Assembly: GCA_037479115.1 (NCBI GenBank)
Contig: JBBFLK010000006.1
Location: forward strand, 1 to 64,000
Direction: 5' to 3'
Source of the DNA: Anaerohalosphaeraceae bacterium
GTDB taxonomy: Bacteria > Planctomycetota > Phycisphaerae > Sedimentisphaerales > Anaerohalosphaeraceae
DNA length: 64,000 bases
A program made the translations under genes and the position numbers. This document shows, one piece after another, positions 1 through 10,465 of the stretch. A model generated the notes under the pieces. That model was not told where the DNA came from. It saw nothing but the letters and a program-made list of their open reading frames with translations, and did not search any database. Each line of letters starts with the position of its first letter. Within the stretch, counting starts at the first letter, position 1.

Positions 1-1568
<1,568 letters not shown>

Positions 1569-1735
1569 CTTCAGTCCTCCCGAAAAGTGTGCTTCTCTCT
1601 GTAAACCCTGCTGGGCGGTTCCGTCAATCTTTTTTTGCTGCAGCGGGTTCAACAGAGCCTGTTTTTAACGCCTTCTTTCTCGCGAACCCCCCGAAAACAG
1701 GCCTCTCGTTTTACGAACACCGCCCGGGGGATACC

Positions 1736-1996
1736 TTACCTACCCCCCTCCGTCGTTTTCTCTCTGAAGTACCCTCTAACAGCATTCTGGGCAGAATTTG
1801 CAGACGTTTTCCGGTAGGGATACAGCGGACAAGTACTCACTACGCACAAGGCGACTTCCTTACGCTGCCAGTTAACACAATCCAGGCATTTGGCATAAAT
1901 CGCCGCCTTTTTCGACTGCCCCTGCATCGCCTTTTGATAAATCCCCTGATACCGCTTGGGGATTCCCGCAAGATACTCATCAAGCGAAATCGTCAT
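1736..1996 (-). CDS. small four-cysteine phage-type protein
   Basis: An 86-aa protein behind a strong ribosome site (AAGGAG, 8 nt from ATG). The central motif C37-x2-C40-x10-C51-x4-C56, ending CPLYPYR, looks like a compact zinc-binding knuckle. From memory, similar KCLDC...CPLYPYR proteins are common unnamed ORFs in phages and prophages, so I read it as a phage-family component, not a host gene. It lies between the replication initiator and the integrase on the same strand. Its biochemical role is unknown; metal binding is inferred only from the cysteine spacing. Confidence 0.75.
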   Translation of the reverse strand: MTISLDEYLAGIPKRYQGIYQKAMQGQSKKAAIYAKCLDCVNWQRKEVALCVVSTCPLYPYRKTSANSAQNAVRGYFREKTTEGGR

Positions 1997-2029
1997 CTTA
2001 ACATCTCCTTAACATTTAATAAGTATCTC

Positions 2030-2815
2030 TTATAATCCGTGAGAATTTGCGTTTGACCCGGCCGCCGGTCTTTGGGCGTCAGGTTCCAGAGATTTCAGAC
2101 ACCCTCCCGTTTTCCGTTTCCAATCTCGCATTGGCTGGGTCAAAGAAACAACCGGTTTTCCGTTCTCGTCAGTCCAGTTCTTTTGCCTGTAGTAATCATA
2201 AAATTCTTTTGACTGCTGCTCGGATAAACCCAGAAGGTTTCCGTTCTGTATGCATTGATCCAATGAATACCTTTCGTCAGCAGCTTTTTGCTCTTTGGAC
2301 AGCTGGACTGGGTTATCCCGGCCGGGTCCTGTCTGTCCTGTGCAGATTTCCTCGGAAGAATGATTGTTTAAGAGAGGGGGAGAGGGTTGTTTGCGTTTCC
2401 CTTTCTTTTTTATTTCTTCTTTTAAATTCTCTTTTAAATTCTGTTTGACGCCAGACGCAAAGTAAACGGCCTCAGAACGCAAAGTAGAAGAAGATTTCGT
2501 CAAAGTAGACGCAGAATTTGTCAAAGTATCGGGGGAATTTACTTTGCGTCTGGGCGCAAAGTAGATTCTCCTATAGCGGTTCTTTCCGTTTTCGATTTGG
2601 ATAAAGTTTCTTTCCTGCAAGGCCGAAAGAATCCGAGAAACACTCTCCGGACGTTTGTTTATGATTTTTCCCAGAGCGGCATTGCTCATCCGGAGCCCCT
2701 TCTTTGGAAACGAAGCCGCCGCGCCCAAAATGACCTTTTCAGCCAGGGTCAATTCCTGAAGATAGAGAATCTCCGCCGGGATTCGGATGTATTTCAGGCC
2801 GTTTCTATCGCTCAT
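2030..2815 (-). CDS. replication initiator / DnaD-like primosome protein
   Basis: A 261-aa protein with an N-terminal winged-helix region (about 20-85: LTLAEKVILGAAASF then a recognition-helix stretch KRPESVSRILSALQE). A low-complexity linker with seven-residue repeats (xTLxxSx) and Lys-rich segments follows. The C-terminal part (about 205-245, FYDYYRQKNWTDENGKP and PMRDWKRK) resembles the tail of phage replisome-organiser and DnaD-type proteins. The linker DNA contains phased CAAAGTA repeats beside an AT-rich stretch, as in lambda O, whose gene contains its own origin. It overlaps the upstream HTH gene by 11 bp. Initiator function is inferred from domain layout and the embedded repeats. Confidence 0.7.
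   Translation of the reverse strand: MSDRNGLKYIRIPAEILYLQELTLAEKVILGAAASFPKKGLRMSNAALGKIINKRPESVSRILSALQERNFIQIENGKNRYRRIYFAPRRKVNSPDTLTNSASTLTKSSSTLRSEAVYFASGVKQNLKENLKEEIKKKGKRKQPSPPLLNNHSSEEICTGQTGPGRDNPVQLSKEQKAADERYSLDQCIQNGNLLGLSEQQSKEFYDYYRQKNWTDENGKPVVSLTQPMRDWKRKTGGCLKSLEPDAQRPAAGSNANSHGL
2402..2446. other. AT-rich candidate unwinding element with tandem 12-mer
   Basis: This T-rich, strongly A+T stretch directly abuts the iterons and contains a tandem 12-bp repeat CTTTTAAATTCT at 2419-2430 and 2431-2442. Iterons followed by an AT-rich unwinding element is the lambda-type origin layout. It also encodes the Lys/Glu-rich NLKENLKE part of the initiator, so the composition could be partly protein-driven. 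Confidence 0.5.
2458..2563. repeat. iteron-like CAAAGTA repeats (candidate origin)
   Basis: CAAAGTA occurs directly at 2458, 2480, 2501, 2522 and 2557, and inverted (TACTTTG) at 2540. The first four are 22, 21 and 21 bp apart, about two helical turns, so they face one side of the DNA. Flanks fall into two types, RCGCAAAGTA and GTCAAAGTA. They lie in the linker-coding part of the initiator gene, where 21-bp spacing also writes a seven-residue protein repeat. Origin function is inferred. Confidence 0.65.
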
Positions 2816-3050
2816 TTTTGCCCCCCTTGCCGGCCGCCAGCGTCTGGAACCGCTCCAGGGACGGCATGCCCCATTCGACCCAGAGCGTAATATCCTCCCG
2901 CCGCCAGACCCGTTTGCCGCCCAGACGATAGGACGGGGGCAGCTTGCCCGCGTGCAGCAGACTGTAGAGGGTCCGGCGCCCTACGCCCAGCATTCGGGCC
3001 ACCTGGGCAGGTGTCAGTAATAAAGGGGGTTCAAACGGCAGCGGCTCCAT
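2805..3050 (-). CDS. AlpA/excisionase-type HTH protein 1
   Basis: An 81-aa protein with a MerR-like helix-turn-helix (LTPAQVARMLGVGRRTLYSLL) and the following wing (GKLPPSYRLGGKRVWRREDI), typical of excisionase/AlpA DNA-binding domains. An AGGG ribosome site precedes the ATG by about 8 nt. It overlaps the next HTH gene by 20 bp at its start and the initiator gene by 11 bp at its end, so the three are probably translationally coupled. In satellites and ICEs such proteins act as excision factors or activators of integrase; which applies here cannot be told. Confidence 0.8.
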   Translation of the reverse strand: MEPLPFEPPLLLTPAQVARMLGVGRRTLYSLLHAGKLPPSYRLGGKRVWRREDITLWVEWGMPSLERFQTLAAGKGGKNER

Positions 3051-3222
3051 CTTGTCGCCCTTTTAGAGATTCCAAAACTCGTGAACGGTCAAAGCGGATA
3101 ACCTTTGGCGAAATGACAATCCGGGGGATTTTCCCTTCTTTGGCCCATCGCAGAATGGTTTGCGGCTGGACTCCGATAAGAGCGGCCAGCTCCTCTTTGG
3201 TAAGTAAATCTATTGGCTGCAT
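3031..3222 (-). CDS. AlpA/excisionase-type HTH protein 2
   Basis: A 63-aa protein consisting almost only of a MerR-type HTH (LTKEELAALIGVQPQTILRW) and its wing (GKIPRIVISPKVIRFDRSRV). This is the AlpA/Xis minimal fold. It is the first gene of the AlpA-AlpA-initiator run and follows an operator-like inverted repeat and a long hairpin. Its AAGG ribosome site, 9 nt from the ATG, is part of the hairpin stem. Two AlpA-like paralogues in tandem could divide excision and transcriptional roles; this is inference. Confidence 0.8.
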   Translation of the reverse strand: MQPIDLLTKEELAALIGVQPQTILRWAKEGKIPRIVISPKVIRFDRSRVLESLKGRQDGAAAV

Positions 3223-3224
3223 AA

Positions 3225-3269
3225 AAAAAGACCTTTCAAAAAAATGTCGTTTTTTTAAAAGGCCTTTTT
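3225..3269 (-). promoter_or_regulatory. long hairpin covering the ribosome site of the first AlpA gene
   Basis: The left arm AAAAAGACCTTT pairs with AAAGGCCTTTTT with one mismatch, and inside it seven A pair with seven T around TGTCG. On the minus strand the stem contains the AAAGG that serves the ATG at 3222. It could act as a terminator-like attenuator or hide the ribosome site. The structure is visible; the function is inferred. Confidence 0.5.
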
Positions 3270-3292
3270 ATGCAAATGCATAAATTGCATAA
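3268..3292. promoter_or_regulatory. operator-like inverted repeat TTATGCAA-N9-TTGCATAA
   Basis: Perfect 8-bp inverted arms at 3268-3275 and 3285-3292 with ATGCAT between them. It lies between a consensus -10 and the first AlpA gene, the expected site for a repressor or excisionase of the element. The partner protein is unknown. Confidence 0.55.
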
Positions 3293-3316
3293 TGCAGCCG
3301 TTAGGCCTATAACTCA

Positions 3317-3345
3317 ATTATACGTGAGAGATTGGCATGCATAAA
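3317..3345 (-). promoter_or_regulatory. candidate promoter for the AlpA-AlpA-initiator operon
   Basis: A perfect -10 TATAAT (plus-strand ATTATA at 3317-3322) reads toward the AlpA genes. The -35 region (around 3340-3345) is poor, with no TTGACA-like match at 16-18 bp, which fits a promoter needing an activator. Confidence 0.45.
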
Positions 3346-3349
3346 AATT

Positions 3350-4150
3350 TCATTTCGGCCTTGTTCGACCATCTGTCCGCTTCCCCAGATCTACAATCCG
3401 GCTGTTGTAAGCGACTTTGGGTTTGGCCCCCTTCTCTTCTGTGAGAAGGTTATGATACTTTGCCCAGCCTTTAAACTCTTTAATCAACCGGCTAACCGTG
3501 TATTGCTTAAGTGGCCTTTTATATTCTTTCGAAAGCATTTTGGCAATTTCAGATTGGTTATAACCAGATTGATACAACAAATAGGCCTCTCTGGCCTCCT
3601 TCCTCGGTTCCTTCGGCAGTCGCAACGGCTGCTGCTCCTGAGGGACAGTGTTAACGGAGCGGTGGTGCTGAACCGCTTCCTGCAAAACCCTGAGTTGTTC
3701 AATCTTGGGCAGGCGTTCAAAGTCTTTGTAGGACAACCCGATGATTTTCTGAACCGCCAAAGCCAGGACAAAAGGGGATGCAAACTCATTTCCGGTCAGT
3801 TCTTTTGCGGCTCTATGGACAACCAGTTTATCCAGAAACTGAACAACCCCAGCCGGCCCGCCAAAACACTTTTCCAGTTTCTCTAAAATGTGGCTTGGCA
3901 AAGTAATCGGCCCCGGCCATCGGTCTAAGTCGCTATCTGTCAGCGGATATTCGTCTTCGGTTTGCTTCGCAGGAGCAACCCAATACTGCAGGATACCCCC
4001 CTTGGATGGATTCTGCGGTTTGGTTTGTTTCTTTTTCACTTGTCGCAGCCCTCTCGACAAGCCCGGAAAAACTCGGCGCGGCCAGCCAGGCGGGCTTTTC
4101 CTGGTTTTCGGACGCGACCCTATGCCGCGCCGTTTGATTCTATCCGTCAA
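3350..4150 (-). CDS. unknown HTH protein of the integrated element
   Basis: A 266-aa protein I do not recognise. The N-terminus is basic and Pro-rich. Residues about 200-235 (YNQSEIAKMLSKEYK, then TVSRLIKEF) have the spacing of a resolvase/Fis-type helix-turn-helix, so DNA binding is likely. The first start is TTG at 4150, overlapping by 11 bp the end of the displaced integrase tail (stop at 4140). A GTG at codon 42 of this frame (VKKKQ) is an alternative. In the excised circle this gene would lie directly downstream of and overlapping the integrase gene, which supports the reconstructed integrase frame. It could regulate maintenance or packaging; nothing in the sequence decides. Confidence 0.6.
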   Translation of the reverse strand: MTDRIKRRGIGSRPKTRKSPPGWPRRVFPGLSRGLRQVKKKQTKPQNPSKGGILQYWVAPAKQTEDEYPLTDSDLDRWPGPITLPSHILEKLEKCFGGPAGVVQFLDKLVVHRAAKELTGNEFASPFVLALAVQKIIGLSYKDFERLPKIEQLRVLQEAVQHHRSVNTVPQEQQPLRLPKEPRKEAREAYLLYQSGYNQSEIAKMLSKEYKRPLKQYTVSRLIKEFKGWAKYHNLLTEEKGAKPKVAYNSRIVDLGKRTDGRTRPK

Positions 4151-4349
4151 CGCCGGCCAGCGTCAAGATGGCTTTCCGGATATAGTCCGGCAGGGCATCC
4201 CAGACCAAAACCAGCTGCTCCAAATCAGTGCTTTTTCGTGTGCCTTGCGGTTTTTGATTTTCACAAGTGCTTTTATTATCAAGGACTTGCGATTTTAGAG
4301 CATCGGTCTTCGGAACCGAGGGTTGGGGGTTCGAGTCCCTCCAGACGCA
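4140..4349 (-). pseudogene. displaced 3' end of the integrase gene (att core plus 51-codon tail)
   Basis: On the minus strand the attR core encodes the same 18 residues as at attL, in the integrase frame. It then continues with 51 codons ending LPDYIRKAILTLAGVDG and a TAG at 4140. In the integrated state it lacks a proper start; only a TTG right after the carA stop could open it. Joined to the integrase in the circle it restores a 569-aa protein. The tail overlaps the next gene by 11 bp, as expected of a real gene end. I read it as the severed C-terminus, not an independent gene. Confidence 0.7.
4296..4349 (+). repeat. attR, tRNA 3' remnant
   Basis: Right copy of the 54-bp repeat, without the 5' half of the tRNA, so it is not a functional tRNA gene. 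It sits 16 bp beyond the carA stop. On the minus strand the same 18 codons continue here into an open frame of 51 more codons (to 4140) instead of stopping. Confidence 0.93.
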
Positions 4350-4365
4350 GTCAAACCGAACCAAC

Positions 4366-5484
4366 TCAGCGTTTGCTCATCCAGTCTGTAAATTGCTCGA
4401 AAAGATACCGCGAATCGTGCGGGCCCGGGGAGGCCTCCGGGTGATACTGGACGGAGAAGGCCTTTTTCTTTTTGACGGATAGCCCTTCGCTGGTCATGTC
4501 GTTGAGATTCAGATGCGTCATTTTGGCGCCTGTGCCCTTCAGCGAATCCAAATCCACACAAAAACCGTGATTCTGGCTGGTAATCTCAATGCATCCGGTT
4601 TCAAGATTTTTCACAGGGTGATTGGCGCCGCGGTGACCAAACTTGAGTTTGTAAGTTTTGCCGCCGAGGGCCAGGGCCAGCAATTGATGCCCCAGACAAA
4701 TTCCGAAAATCGGCACTTTGCCCAGCAGAGCCCGAACCGTTTCGACCGCAAACGTCAAAGCCGCCGGGTCTCCGGGACCGTTGCTGAGGAAAACTCCATC
4801 GGGTTTTCGAGCCAGAACTTTTTCTGCAGGAGTATGAGCGGGAACGACCTCAACGGCACAGCCGTGCGAACGAAGCAGCCGCAGAATATTGTGTTTGATG
4901 CCGAAATCATACGCCACGACGGAATACCGTATCGAAGGGCGAATTTCCTCCCCTCGCAGAACATCCACAAATCCCTTATCCCAGCGGTAGGGACGTTCGG
5001 AGCTGACTTCACTGACAATATCGCGACCGACAAGCCCCGGATAGGCCTCCAGCCGATTCCGCAAAACCGAAATGCTGAATTCCTCTGAGGAAAGAATGCC
5101 GCGCATGGCTCCCTGCGTGCGGATATGGCGGACGAGCTTGCGGGTATCAATGCCCTCCAGGCCGACCACCCCGCTGTCTTTCAGATAGGCGGAAAGGGTC
5201 TTTCGGCTTCGCCAATTGCTCGGGTAGGGACAGGCCTCTTTGACAACCAGCCCGGCACAGAAAATTTTGCGGGATTCCCAATCGAGCTCGTTGGTGCCGG
5301 TATTTCCGATCATCGGATAGGTCATGGTCATAATCTGTTCATGATAGGACGGGTCGGTCAGGATTTCCTGGTAGCCGGTCATCGCCGTATTGAATACGAC
5401 CTCGCCGCAGACTGTTCCGACGGCACCGAAAGAAGTGCCTTCAAACACCGTTCCGTCTTCGAGCAGTAAAATTGCTTTGGACAT
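4366..5484 (-). CDS. carA: carbamoyl-phosphate synthase small subunit
   Basis: The 372-aa glutaminase subunit hydrolyses glutamine and passes ammonia to CarB for carbamoyl phosphate, used in pyrimidine and arginine synthesis. The N-terminal half is the CPSase_sm_chain domain (LEDGTVFEGTSFG). The class I amidotransferase domain has the nucleophile motif GICLGHQ and the His/Glu pair in YHPEASPGP. Length is normal. The AAAGGA ribosome site lies in the 9-bp gap after carB, so order and spacing indicate co-transcription with carB. Its 3' end faces the tRNA/element junction. Confidence 0.97.
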   Translation of the reverse strand: MSKAILLLEDGTVFEGTSFGAVGTVCGEVVFNTAMTGYQEILTDPSYHEQIMTMTYPMIGNTGTNELDWESRKIFCAGLVVKEACPYPSNWRSRKTLSAYLKDSGVVGLEGIDTRKLVRHIRTQGAMRGILSSEEFSISVLRNRLEAYPGLVGRDIVSEVSSERPYRWDKGFVDVLRGEEIRPSIRYSVVAYDFGIKHNILRLLRSHGCAVEVVPAHTPAEKVLARKPDGVFLSNGPGDPAALTFAVETVRALLGKVPIFGICLGHQLLALALGGKTYKLKFGHRGANHPVKNLETGCIEITSQNHGFCVDLDSLKGTGAKMTHLNLNDMTSEGLSVKKKKAFSVQYHPEASPGPHDSRYLFEQFTDWMSKR

Positions 5485-5493
5485 ATCGTTCCT

Positions 5494-8400
5494 TTATCGG
5501 TAATACAGCTGAATCGGTTTGACTGAAATTTTCTTTTTCCGCATTGCCTCAATCGCCTGAACAATGGCTGCCGCCGCCCGAATCGTGGTGGCATACGGCA
5601 CCTGATGGTCCACCGCGGCCCGGCGAATCGGGAAGGAATCCCGAATCGTCTGCTCGCCGATGGTGGTATTGATAATCAAATCCACCTGACCGTTGATAAT
5701 GCGGTCCACAATATTCGGTCGGCCCTCATTCATTTTGCGAATAAACTCCGAGGGAATGTTGTTTTCAATCAGCGTGATGCAGGTCCCCCGGGTGGCAATA
5801 ATCTTAAAGCCCATTTCATGGAATCGCCGTGCGATGGCCACAGCTTTGGGTTTGTCAGCATCTTTGACGCTGATAAAGACTGTTCCCCCGGTGGGCAGCG
5901 GATTGCCGGCGGCTATCTGGGATTTGGCATATGCGATTCCGATATCCTCGCTGATGCCCATCACCTCGCCGGTCGAGAGCATTTCAGGCCCCAAAATGAC
6001 ATCCGCACCCGGAAACTTCAGGAAGGGGAAGACCGCCTCTTTGACGGAATAATACGGACGAACCACCTCGCGGGTAAACCCGAGCTGTTTGAGGGTCATC
6101 CCGGCCATCACCTTGGCAGCCAGTTTGGCCAGCGGAACTCCAATGGCCTTGCTGACAAAAGGAATGGTTCGGGAGGCCCGCGGATTGACCTCAAGGATAT
6201 AAACCTGATTGTCCTTGACAGCGAACTGAATATTAATCAGGCCTTTGACGTTCAGGGCCAGGGCCAATTGTTTGGTCTGACGTTTGATGTCCGCAATCAC
6301 GGACTTGGGCAGAGAAAAGGTCGGCAGAATGCAGGCGCTGTCGCCGGAATGGATGCCGGCTTCTTCAATATGCTCCATAATGCCGCCGATCACGACGGTC
6401 TTGCCGTCACAAATCGCATCCACATCCAATTCCGTCGCATCATCGAGGAACTGGTCAATCAGGACCGGATGTCCTTCGGCGGCCTCAAAGGCCTCCAGCA
6501 CGGAAGTGCGGAAGTCCTCCTCGTTATAGACAATATCCATCGCCCGACCGCCGAGCACAAAGGACGGTCGAACCAGAAGCGGAAACCCGATTTTTTTGGC
6601 AATTTTCAGGGCTTCAGCATAGGTGGTAGCACTGCCTCCGGCGGGCTGCCGCAGCCGCAGCTTCCGTATCAGCCGATTAAACTTTTCCCGGTCTTCTGCA
6701 ATGTCGATGCTTTCCGGAGAGGTCCCAATAATCGGCACGCCGGCTTTGCGGAGCGGGGTAGCCAGTTTCAGGGGAGTCTGACCGCCCAGCTGGACAATCA
6801 CACCGTCCGGACGTTCCGTCTCCACAATATTCATCACATCCTCAAATGTCAGCGGCTCAAAATACAGCCGGTCGGAGGTGTCATAATCCGTGCTGACCGT
6901 CTCGGGGTTGCAGTTGACCATGATGGATTCGATGCCGATTTCCCGCAGGGCAAAGGCCGCATGACAGCAGCAGTAGTCAAACTCGATTCCCTGTCCGATT
7001 CGGTTGGGCCCGCCGCCTAGAATCATCACCTTCCGAAGCGACGTCGGAGCGGCCTCGCACTCCTCTTCATAGGTTGAATACAGATAAGGAGTCTGGGCTT
7101 CAAACTCCGCGCCGCAGGTATCGACCTTCTTGTAAACAGGGTGAATTCCTTTTTCTTTGCGATACGTGCGAAATTCGATTTCGGAGACTCCCAGCTGTTC
7201 CGCAATATATTTGTCGCTGAAGCCTGCTTTTTTGAGTTTTTCGACAAAGGAAGCTTTCAGAGGTTTGGATGCAGACTTGAGTTCCTTTTCAAGATGAACA
7301 ATCTCTCGAATGTGGTCCAGAAACCACCGGTCAACCTTTGTATATTCATAAATCTGCTCGGTGGAAAGCCCCCGCCGAAAGCCCTCAGCGATATACCACA
7401 TTTTGTCCCAGCGTGTCGAACGAAGCTTGGAAATGAGCTCCACTTTGGACAGGTTGTCCGGAAGATGTTTGGCGTCCAGCGAATACCGGCTGATTTCCAG
7501 CGAACGAATGGCTTTCTGAAGCGACTCCTTCATGGTGCGTCCGATGGCCATTGCCTCGCCGACGGATTTCATCTGGATGGTCAGCTCCGGAGCAGTTTGC
7601 GGAAACTTCTCAAAGGTAAACCGCGGCCATTTGGTCACCACATAATCAATTGTCGGCTCAAAACAGGCCGGCGTCTTTTTGGTAATGTCATTGGGAATCT
7701 CATCCAGGGTATATCCGACGGCCAGCAGTGAAGCAATTTTGGCGATGGGAAAACCCGTGGCCTTGGACGCAAGGGCCGAGCTGCGGGACACACGCGGATT
7801 CATCTCAATGACAACCATCTTGCCGTTTTCGGGGTTGACGGCAAACTGAATATTCGACCCGCCGGTTTCCACGCCGATGGCCCGGATGATTTTGAGGGCG
7901 GCATCCCGCATGAGCTGGTATTCCTTGTCCGTAAGGGTCTGAGCGGGCGCAACGGTGATGCTGTCACCGGTATGGATGCCCATCGGGTCCACATTTTCAA
8001 TTGAACAGACAATCACAACATTGTCTTTGCGGTCGCGCATCACCTCCAACTCATACTCTTTCCAGCCGATTACGGATTGTTCAATCAGGATTTGATGAGT
8101 CGGGCTTAAATCCAGTCCCCACTGAACGAACCGCTCGAATTCCTCTGCATTATAGGCAATGTTTCCGCCGGTTCCGCCCAGCGTATAGGAAGGACGGATA
8201 ATGGCCGGAAATCCGATATCTTTGACGATTTCCCGTGCCTCCTCGGCTGTATGAGCATAGCCGCTGGCCGGTACTTCCAGCCCGATGCTCTGGATAATTT
8301 TCTTAAAGCGGTCGCGTTCTTCGGCCCGCTTAATGGACTGAAGATTGGCGCCGAGAAGCTTGACCCCGTACTTTTTCAGAACGCCGCTTTCCGCAAGGGC

Positions 8401-8803: not shown

Positions 8804-10465
8804 TTATCCTCTGTATCGGTTGGTAATCGGCATTCGCCGGTCCTTTCCGAATGCCCGGGGGGTAATCTTTATGCCGGGCGGAGACTGCCGGCGCTTGTAT
8901 TCGTTCCGATCCACCATCTGAAGCACCCGTTCAACCTCCGGACGGGGAAGGCCGCGGGCAATCAGCTCATCCCGGCTGAGTTTTTCCTCAATAAAGCCCT
9001 TCAAAATCTGATCGAGAACAGGATACTCCGGGAGGGAATCGCTGTCTTTCTGGTTGGGTCTGAGCTCTGCCGAAGGAATGCGGTCGATTACACTCTGCGG
9101 AATCACCTTTTTCCCTTTGATTCGGTTGTAATAATCACAGAGCTGATAGACCATGGTTTTGGGCACATCTTTAATCACGGCAAATCCTCCGGCGGTATCC
9201 CCGTAGAGGGTGGAGTATCCGACGGCTGTTTCACTCTTGTTGCCGGTGGTCAGCACCAGATAGCCGAACTGGTTGGACAGGGTCATCAGCAGGGTCCCGC
9301 GAATCCGGGCCTGGAGATTCTCATAAGCCAATCCGGCTTCATTCCATCCTTTTACGGCCGACAGCGTCCGGCTGAAAGCAGACAGGATGTCTTCAATCGG
9401 CAGGATTTGAAAGCCGATACCGAGATTTGCCGCAACCATCTGAGCATCGGAACGGGTTTCGGCGGCATTAAAGCGGGACGGCATAGTAATCCCAATGACG
9501 TTCTCCGGCCCCAGGGCCTCCGCCGCGATAGCTGCCGTCAAAGCGGAATCCACCCCCCCGCTCAGGCCGATGAGAACCTTGGAAAAGCCGTTTTTGAGGA
9601 CATAATCTTTTGTACCCAACACGAGGGCCTGCCAGACCTCTTCCATTGGGTCTGCAGGAATCGGTTCATAAGGTGCTGCCAACGGACTGGTTATCTCAAG
9701 TGTGCCGTCTTCGTTCCTGAAACAGTCAAAGACCAGCAGGTCCTCCTGAAAACCGGCGGCCTGAAAAAGGGTCTTTCCTTGTGCATCGACCACCATGCTG
9801 CGGCCGTCAAAAATCAGTTCATCCTGACCGCCAATCAGATTGCAGTAAAACAGCGGACATCCGAAATGGACGGCACAGCGGGAAATGACCTTCCTGCGCT
9901 CCTCAATCTTTCCCATATGAAACGGGGAGGCCGCCAGACAAAGAACCGCGTCGAATTCTCCCCGAATCTTTAGAAAGAAATCATCCAGCCAGGGCAGCTC
10001 CCAGATGTCTTCGCAGATGGTCAAGGCCAGCCGAAGAGGACCGGCATGGGCGACCACCGGCTCCCGACCGGGATGAAAATACCGTTTTTCGTCAAACACA
10101 CCGTAATTCGGCAGGCAGCCTTTTTGGTAGTTTTTGAGAATTTTGCCGTCTCGAATGACGGCTGCGGCATTGTAGAGTCGACTCTTTTCTGATTGGGGCC
10201 AGCCGACAATCAGCATAAGAGACTGAATCTGACCAGACAGATGCTCTATCGTTGAATGGCAATCCTGCAGAAAGCGGGGACGATGAAGCAAATCCTCCGG
10301 CGGGTACCCGGAAAGAAACAATTCCGGAAGAACGAGTAAATCGGCCTTTTTCTCCTGTGCTGTTTTAACAAAATCGAGGGCTTTTCGGCAATTGCCTTCC
10401 AAATCTCCGACTGTCGGATTGGCCTGTCCTAATGCGATTCGAATCGACTTAGGCTCCTGCGGCAT
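8804..10465 (-). CDS. nadE: glutamine-dependent NAD+ synthetase
   Basis: A 553-aa two-domain enzyme converting deamido-NAD+ to NAD+ with glutamine-derived ammonia. The N-terminal nitrilase-type glutaminase shows the Glu-Lys-Cys triad in [25 protein letters not shown] and [11 protein letters not shown]. The C-terminal ATP-pyrophosphatase domain begins near 275 with the P-loop SGGVDSAL. The length fits the long glutamine-dependent form. It lies 10 bp after gltD on the same strand, in a run of genes that all consume glutamine. A purine-rich ribosome site precedes the ATG. Confidence 0.97.

Follow-up and report, generated by a model that had tools for sequence, protein, structure and literature searches.

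Why should the coding sequence of a replication initiator carry one seven-base word six times over? The question is raised by a 4.3-kb integrative element at the start of contig JBBFLK010000006.1 (GCA_037479115.1), whose positions 1–64,000, a stretch of 64,000 nt referred to here as the window, were analysed. The initial annotation had proposed that these repeats, together with an adjoining T-rich stretch, form a candidate origin of the lambda type. Very probably, positions 2402–2563 are indeed the replication origin of the element and lie where its own initiator gene encodes the linker. In the best reading the initiator would bind an intragenic origin of the lambda type within the very gene that encodes it, and the element would be a stripped-down relative of phage-satellite-like islands that carry a terminase small subunit gene (terS) and a primase-helicase.

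The element and its initiator

The element occupies positions 15–4349 and is inserted in a tRNA-Arg(TCG) gene, where it is delimited by 54-bp direct repeats on the plus strand. The repeat at the integrase end (15–68) lies in the tRNA gene, whose 5' end is found on contig C35 of the same genome, and the second (4296–4349) is the duplicated tRNA 3' end that adjoins carA. Position 1 of the window falls within the tRNA gene; as the final 55 bases of C35 are identical to window 1–55, the two contigs are most likely neighbours. The break inside the att tRNA with its 55-bp overlap could stem from a sample in which molecules with the element integrated were mixed with empty or excised ones, or simply from repeated tRNA sequence. 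In two sisters of the same genus, G209 and G392, carA stands directly beside an intact tRNA without the element, and these empty sites, with the direct repeats, uphold the annotated size of 4.3 kb. A Planctomycetota metagenome-assembled genome (locus L002, apparently the same contig as G394:C58) carries the same element at the same place with the tRNA intact. A comparison at the DNA level detected the element, or a divergent relative, in three of six genomes of the genus, its own genome counted; no free circular form was seen.

All genes of the element lie on the minus strand. A tyrosine integrase (6–1652; PF00589, 2.5e-23; dN/dS 0.14 against L002) probably starts at the ATG at 1568, as read from the sequence. 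Its frame crosses the att site and stops within the tRNA gene, so that integration alters the final residues of the integrase. It is followed by a small cysteine-containing protein of 86 aa (1736–1996; dN/dS 0.27) with no Pfam family at E≤1 and weak PHROG matches only, and by the initiator of 261 aa (2030–2815). Next come an AlpA/excisionase-like helix-turn-helix protein of 81 aa (2805–3050; PF12728 1.4e-14, PF05930 5e-5; PHROG 66, excisionase), a second excisionase-like helix-turn-helix protein of 63 aa (3031–3222; PF12728 5.5e-9; PHROG 66) and a 266-aa protein (3350–4150) with a weak C-terminal helix-turn-helix match (best Pfam E 0.02, below cut-off) and a low-confidence, all-helical predicted structure. 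Because all six genes are open in both species, with dN/dS of 0.06–0.36 and dS of 0.22–0.47 against L002, near the 0.27 of neighbouring carA, they have been maintained under purifying selection since the two lineages split. Pfam and PHROG gave no match above cut-off to terS or to another packaging or interference gene in the element, Pfam gave none to a DUF3987/DUF5906 primase among its proteins, and no primase-helicase is recognisable in it.

The AlphaFold2 model of the initiator has an N-terminal winged helix (residues about 4–88), a linker predicted to be disordered (91–183, pLDDT below 50) and a small helical domain at the C-terminus (174–235). The protein matches the O-like PHROG families 270 (3e-9), 678 (5e-8) and 345 (3e-4), of which 678 and 345 are common to it and to lambda O; PF04492 (Phage_rep_O), which lambda O matches at 5.7e-36, is not listed for it at E≤1. 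Sharing two families with lambda O and having no PF04492 match, the initiator appears to be O-like in its working while standing outside the Pfam family as tested. A search of solved structures with the model returned only general winged helices of the MarR/Crp type and named no initiator. The viral structure library returned initiator and replisome-organiser names, including an N-terminal entry of lambda GpO, with TM-scores kept low by the large disordered share of the model. The C-terminal helical domain contains a YY...GKP...DWK stretch, which by eye resembles the corresponding part of two initiators in genome G384.

The repeated word and its conservation

The word CAAAGTA, which is TACTTTG on the coding strand, starts at 2458, 2480, 2501 and 2522 (steps of 22, 21 and 21) and at 2557, with an inverted copy at 2540, exactly as first annotated: four copies in phase at 21–22 bp, one farther off and one inverted. 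The six copies fall within 106 bp, and the rest of the 64 kb holds only two others. Shuffles give an expectation of 3.55 per window and about 3e-14 per window for a cluster of six in 106 bp, by which a chance cluster is rejected.

In the coding direction, copy A (2557–2563, CAAAGTA on the plus strand as in all direct copies) is read in frame 0 as Y-F and the inverted copy (2540–2546, minus strand) as K-V, the two forming a dyad, TACTTTGCG-N6-CGCAAAGTA. Copies B (2522–2528), C (2501–2507) and D (2480–2486) are read in frame 2 as T-L, and copy E (2458–2464), again Y-F in frame 0, adjoins an A/T-rich tract. The word is thus encountered as Y-F twice, T-L three times and K-V once; being in two forward frames and inverted, it is the DNA word that repeats and not the peptide. 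The claim that the DNA repeat is also a seven-residue protein repeat applies to three of the six copies, the others lying in other codon contexts. Its placement in the linker-coding part is right for most of the array, which lies largely within the disordered residues 91–183, although the words span codons 85–120 and so begin at the edge of the winged helix.

Past the array, as read along the gene, lies the A/T-rich tract (2402–2446), a candidate DNA unwinding element whose 45 bp are less stable than any other stretch of that length in the 4.3 kb. It contains two copies of a tandem 12-mer (2424–2447), which had been noted at the outset as part of a T-rich stretch.

How many such repeats does the protein itself demand? 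Identical 7-mers (k=7, either strand) lying 12–120 bp apart within a gene were counted and compared with shuffles of synonymous codons that left protein and codon usage unchanged. The window initiator contains 84, against a shuffle mean of 18.9 and a maximum of 45, and none of 1000 shuffles reached the observed count. Counted in this way, lambda O has 42 such repeats where its shuffles average 15.2 (reached by 0/500), and lambda P has 9 where the average is 10.8 (353/500). Among the first 11 genes of the family, nine lay beyond all 1000 shuffles, L006 was reached by 1/1000 and L011 by 114/1000. Follow-up homologues, most of them with different words, passed in 17 of 22 cases (≤5/500), against three of 39 control ORFs (Fisher p=4e-8). 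This follow-up set comprises all loci given by the search of the order beyond the first 11 genes, leaving aside matches without a locus, and includes an 80-aa fragment at a contig edge (L057) as well as genes that were found via the C-terminal part and have a different N-terminal domain (e.g. L060, L062 and L067). The controls are non-overlapping window ORFs of at least 150 aa, represented by the first 900 bases of each, and not curated genes. The failures were L051 (110/500), L052 (10), L053 (16), L057 (84) and L066 (90); three homologues for which the order search gave no locus were tested later and were reached by 0, 0 and 1 of 500 shuffles. Since the statistic takes repeats anywhere in a gene, passing is not in itself proof that the linker holds an iteron array. 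The word differs from gene to gene, and steps of 21–23 bp recur in many homologues, with steps of 11–12 bp in some that have a different N-terminal domain (again L060, L062 and L067, for example). The order of an iteron array followed by an A-rich tract likewise recurs in many.

Comparison with L002, whose initiator is 80% identical in protein over the alignment, shows where the gene has been free to change. Two of 42 iteron bases differ, against 11 of 72 in the spacers between iterons. At third codon positions, none of the 32 in the iterons and A/T tract has changed, against 43 of 201 elsewhere (p=0.001); the tract by itself (codons 123–138) accounts for 0 of 16. Synonymous-position conservation in homologues was the check that the initial annotation had asked for, and the outcome speaks for it. 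Each of the two iteron changes is non-synonymous and disrupts one word (TACATTG at copy A, TACTATG at copy B), so that two of the six are broken, a point against any strict requirement for the full set.

Two more distant relatives, L003 in genome G142 (46% identity over the matched part) and the initiator of G393 (40%), keep the word spacings of 17, 18, 21 and 22 bp; at copy D, the window has one 21-bp unit more than either. The pattern over all four genes is one of spacings 17, 18, 21, (21), 22 and frames 0, inverted, 2, 2, (2), 0: the second copy is inverted in each, and every forward copy keeps its frame (Y-F in frame 0, T-L in frame 2, Y-F in frame 0, or Y-S in L003). L003 retains TACTTTGAC, with one copy as TACTCTG. 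In G393 all four direct copies read TACTTTAGCG instead of TACTTTG (TACTTTG to TACTTTA), and the inverted copy is TACTTTCGCG. As this change spans copies in different reading frames, selection on the protein cannot easily account for it. The arms of the dyad covary, with GCG/CGC in the window and GAC/GTC in L003. Loss of the DNA phase with retention of the protein repeat would have spoken against an origin; the homologues present the reverse, keeping the phase while most linker residues differ. All this shows that the words are preserved as DNA signals and not as a by-product of the protein, and together with the concerted word change across frames it strengthens the case for a lambda-type origin candidate.

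Natural swaps between paralogues point the same way. The two initiators of G384 have nearly identical C-terminal halves and different winged helices, and the repeated word TACGAACAATTGTGCGCA in one is TACGAAGAAATCTGCGCA in the other at aligned codons. In G303, loci L005 and L009 are nearly identical from the A/T-rich tract (CATAATTTAAAA) onward; their winged helices differ, as do their words, of the GTGTCAG type in one and the CATAGACA type in the other. The natural reading is that the DNA-binding domain and the array form one specificity module, and the joint change of winged helix and word suggests that each initiator binds the words in its own gene. Synonymous conservation, frame-independent spacing and concerted word change offer DNA-level evidence of a coding linker that appears to be under selection as an origin.

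The candidate origin and its alternatives

The following course of events would fit these features. The integrase and the AlpA-like excisionase would free the element from the tRNA-Arg gene, and the winged helix of the initiator would bind the TACTTTG sites, that is, the dyad of facing copies and the direct copies every 21–22 bp. The bound initiator may then assemble a nucleoprotein complex at which the adjacent 45-bp A/T-rich tract (2402–2446) melts. Its C-terminal domain would recruit the replicative helicase of the host, since the element encodes no recognisable primase-helicase, which sets it apart from its relatives, and the excised circle would be replicated by the theta mode. Use of the host helicase is also suggested by the likeness of the C-terminal domain to the G384 initiators, one of which adjoins a DnaC-like gene; the initiators of G393 and G142, which adjoin a primase-helicase, have short C-termini. 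Several observations go against this explanation: the two broken copies in L002, the failure of five of the 22 follow-up genes and one of the first 11, the passing of three of 39 controls, the missing match to Phage_rep_O, and the fact that no excised circle was detected.

The array might be bound by the initiator and yet serve chiefly as an operator, or as a handcuffing or incompatibility site that controls the gene or the copy number, with the true origin elsewhere in the element. Other parts of the element are A/T-rich as well, among them the stretch at 1993, just past the initiator gene, which ranks second in instability, and known PICI origins lie 3' of rep in the account of PMC6092414. 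We consider this unlikely, as it would be unusual for an operator to sit in a linker some 250 bp into a gene, next to the least stable 45 bp, and the order of array and then A-rich tract recurs in many homologues, as it does in lambda. A search of 1–4500 for repeats of at least 18 bp found no other repeat family of comparable number. It is also quite unlikely that the element is dead and the array the decaying remains of an earlier origin, an idea to which the two broken words of L002 and the absence of terS and primase-helicase lend something, and against which stands the selection seen in the six genes, open in both species and with dS near that of carA. Could the sites instead serve another DNA-binding protein, either one of the two AlpA-like proteins of the element or one of a helper phage, in excision or packaging for instance? 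Excisionase-like proteins are encoded next door and relatives carry terS, but the sites are 2.4 and 1.7 kb away from the att sites, and the paralogues of G303 and of G384 differ in the word and in the winged helix encoded by the gene that carries it, with the C-terminus unchanged, making this improbable. Hardly credible, finally, is the idea that a linker of low complexity is repetitive as protein and that the DNA repeat simply follows from this: although three copies lie within the seven-residue repeat and the linker residues retained among homologues are those encoded by the words, the linker is predicted to be disordered, words change in concert across frames, and a reading by protein repeat alone is rejected by the synonymous shuffles (0/1000) and by the three codon contexts of one identical word.

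The reading as an intragenic origin has well-studied parallels. In lambda the origin lies between the DNA-binding and the helicase-loading parts of O, and the helicase loader P is encoded next door; no helicase loader is recognisable in the window element. Both genes have iterons and then an A/T-rich tract on the coding strand, and in lambda the copies are 20–24 bp apart in several reading frames (0, 2, 2, 1), the window array being multi-frame as well. The likeness falls short of the "exact layout" first claimed: lambda O gives the same outcome in the shuffle test, but it has four direct 18-bp iterons, which are imperfect palindromes in one orientation (J02459), where the present array has six shorter words, one of them inverted, in a gene without the Phage_rep_O match of lambda O. 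Two features nevertheless place the locus in the lambda type, namely more copies of the putative binding word within the initiator gene than its protein calls for, and an A/T-rich candidate unwinding element next to the array. Published experiments described in PMC7466680 place the origin of lambda and Stx phages in the middle of O, with four iterons in lambda and six in Stx phages (PMC7466680; J02459 annotation). The oriL of phage SPP1 lies within gene 38 and likewise combines direct repeats, to which the gene 38 product binds, with an A/T-rich unwinding element; SPP1 is lytic and, on the same account, possesses a further origin, oriR, as well as a helicase and a helicase loader of its own (PMC6316719). 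From these sources, an origin inside the initiator gene is an established kind, to which the window locus would belong. What is new here is the planctomycete lineage and the concerted word changes; the arrangement of lambda O would thereby extend to integrative elements of that lineage. In a literature search with poor coverage of subscription journals, no planctomycete satellite with this arrangement was among the papers listed.

Related islands

The initiator family was matched in 29 of 161 genomes of the order and in seven of 392 genomes sampled from the phylum, where the sole match outside the order is a weak one (G374). No relatives were found in the phage, plasmid and viral-contig collections. 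The relative in G393 is larger, and its 52-bp att repeat (tRNA-Asp) is split over two contigs, which we infer to be parts of one island because the repeat is common to both. The parts seen between the att repeats encode an integrase, a terminase small subunit (PF05119, 1.8e-8), helix-turn-helix proteins, the initiator and a primase-helicase. In G142 the start of a primase like that of G393 is visible by eye past the initiator, and a G384 locus holds an AlpA-like helix-turn-helix gene, the initiator, a DnaC-like loader and terS. The terS genes of related islands lie at 9523–9831 of L033 and at 261–569 of L016, and these islands suggest a possible group of phage satellites in this planctomycete order.

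In general make-up, these related islands are similar to PICI-type phage satellites. The window element shares with PICIs a small integrated island with an integrase, an AlpA-like regulator and a replication gene, as described in PMC6092414. According to the same account, PICI origins are 3' of rep with two iteron sets flanking an A/T-rich region, and terS occurs in some PICIs only; the candidate origin of the window is intragenic, with its array on one side of the A/T tract. Unlike some PICIs in that description, the window element has no terS match, and its relatives in G393 and G384 have the gene. The PICMI of Vibrionaceae are likewise very small, with an integrase, AlpA and one replication gene. 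That gene, in the account of PMC10803314, is a DUF3987/DUF5906 primase, and integration is beside fis; the window element has an O-like initiator and a tRNA-Arg site in a planctomycete.

A wider picture may be drawn tentatively, and we would lean slightly against it. Across the lineage, winged helix and iterons might be one cassette that is swapped or re-tuned as a whole, so that islands sharing a genome diverge in their word and avoid incompatibility; the window element might be a phage satellite reduced to a minimum, having given up both terS and primase-helicase and depending on the C-terminal domain of its initiator and the helicase of the host. If this were true, every such gene would encode a DNA-binding domain together with its target, a natural set of matched protein–DNA pairs. 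Because each gene appears to hold both a DNA-binding domain and its sites, those that pass the shuffle test already offer candidate pairs from which to approach the recognition code of winged helices and the divergence of co-resident replicons.

Some details of the related loci deserve mention. In the single-contig genome G303, L014, L018 and L020 are initiator genes with intragenic iterons, and no integrase was recognised among the neighbouring ORFs listed. L018 and L020 have 1,085 bp in common at 92% identity and hence resemble scattered copies or remnants. A search with exact 14-mers of the tRNA found no att repeats for the three elements of G278; a related island of that genome encodes a Fic-domain protein (L019 4670–5785; PF13784, PF02661) between integrase and initiator. 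The G384 locus L016 (G384:C131) contains, at 3465–5882, a gene for a single-subunit phage-type RNA polymerase (805 aa; PF00940, 4.6e-49), which adjoins the AlpA-like, initiator, DnaC-like and terS genes and is an unusual cargo for a satellite-like locus.
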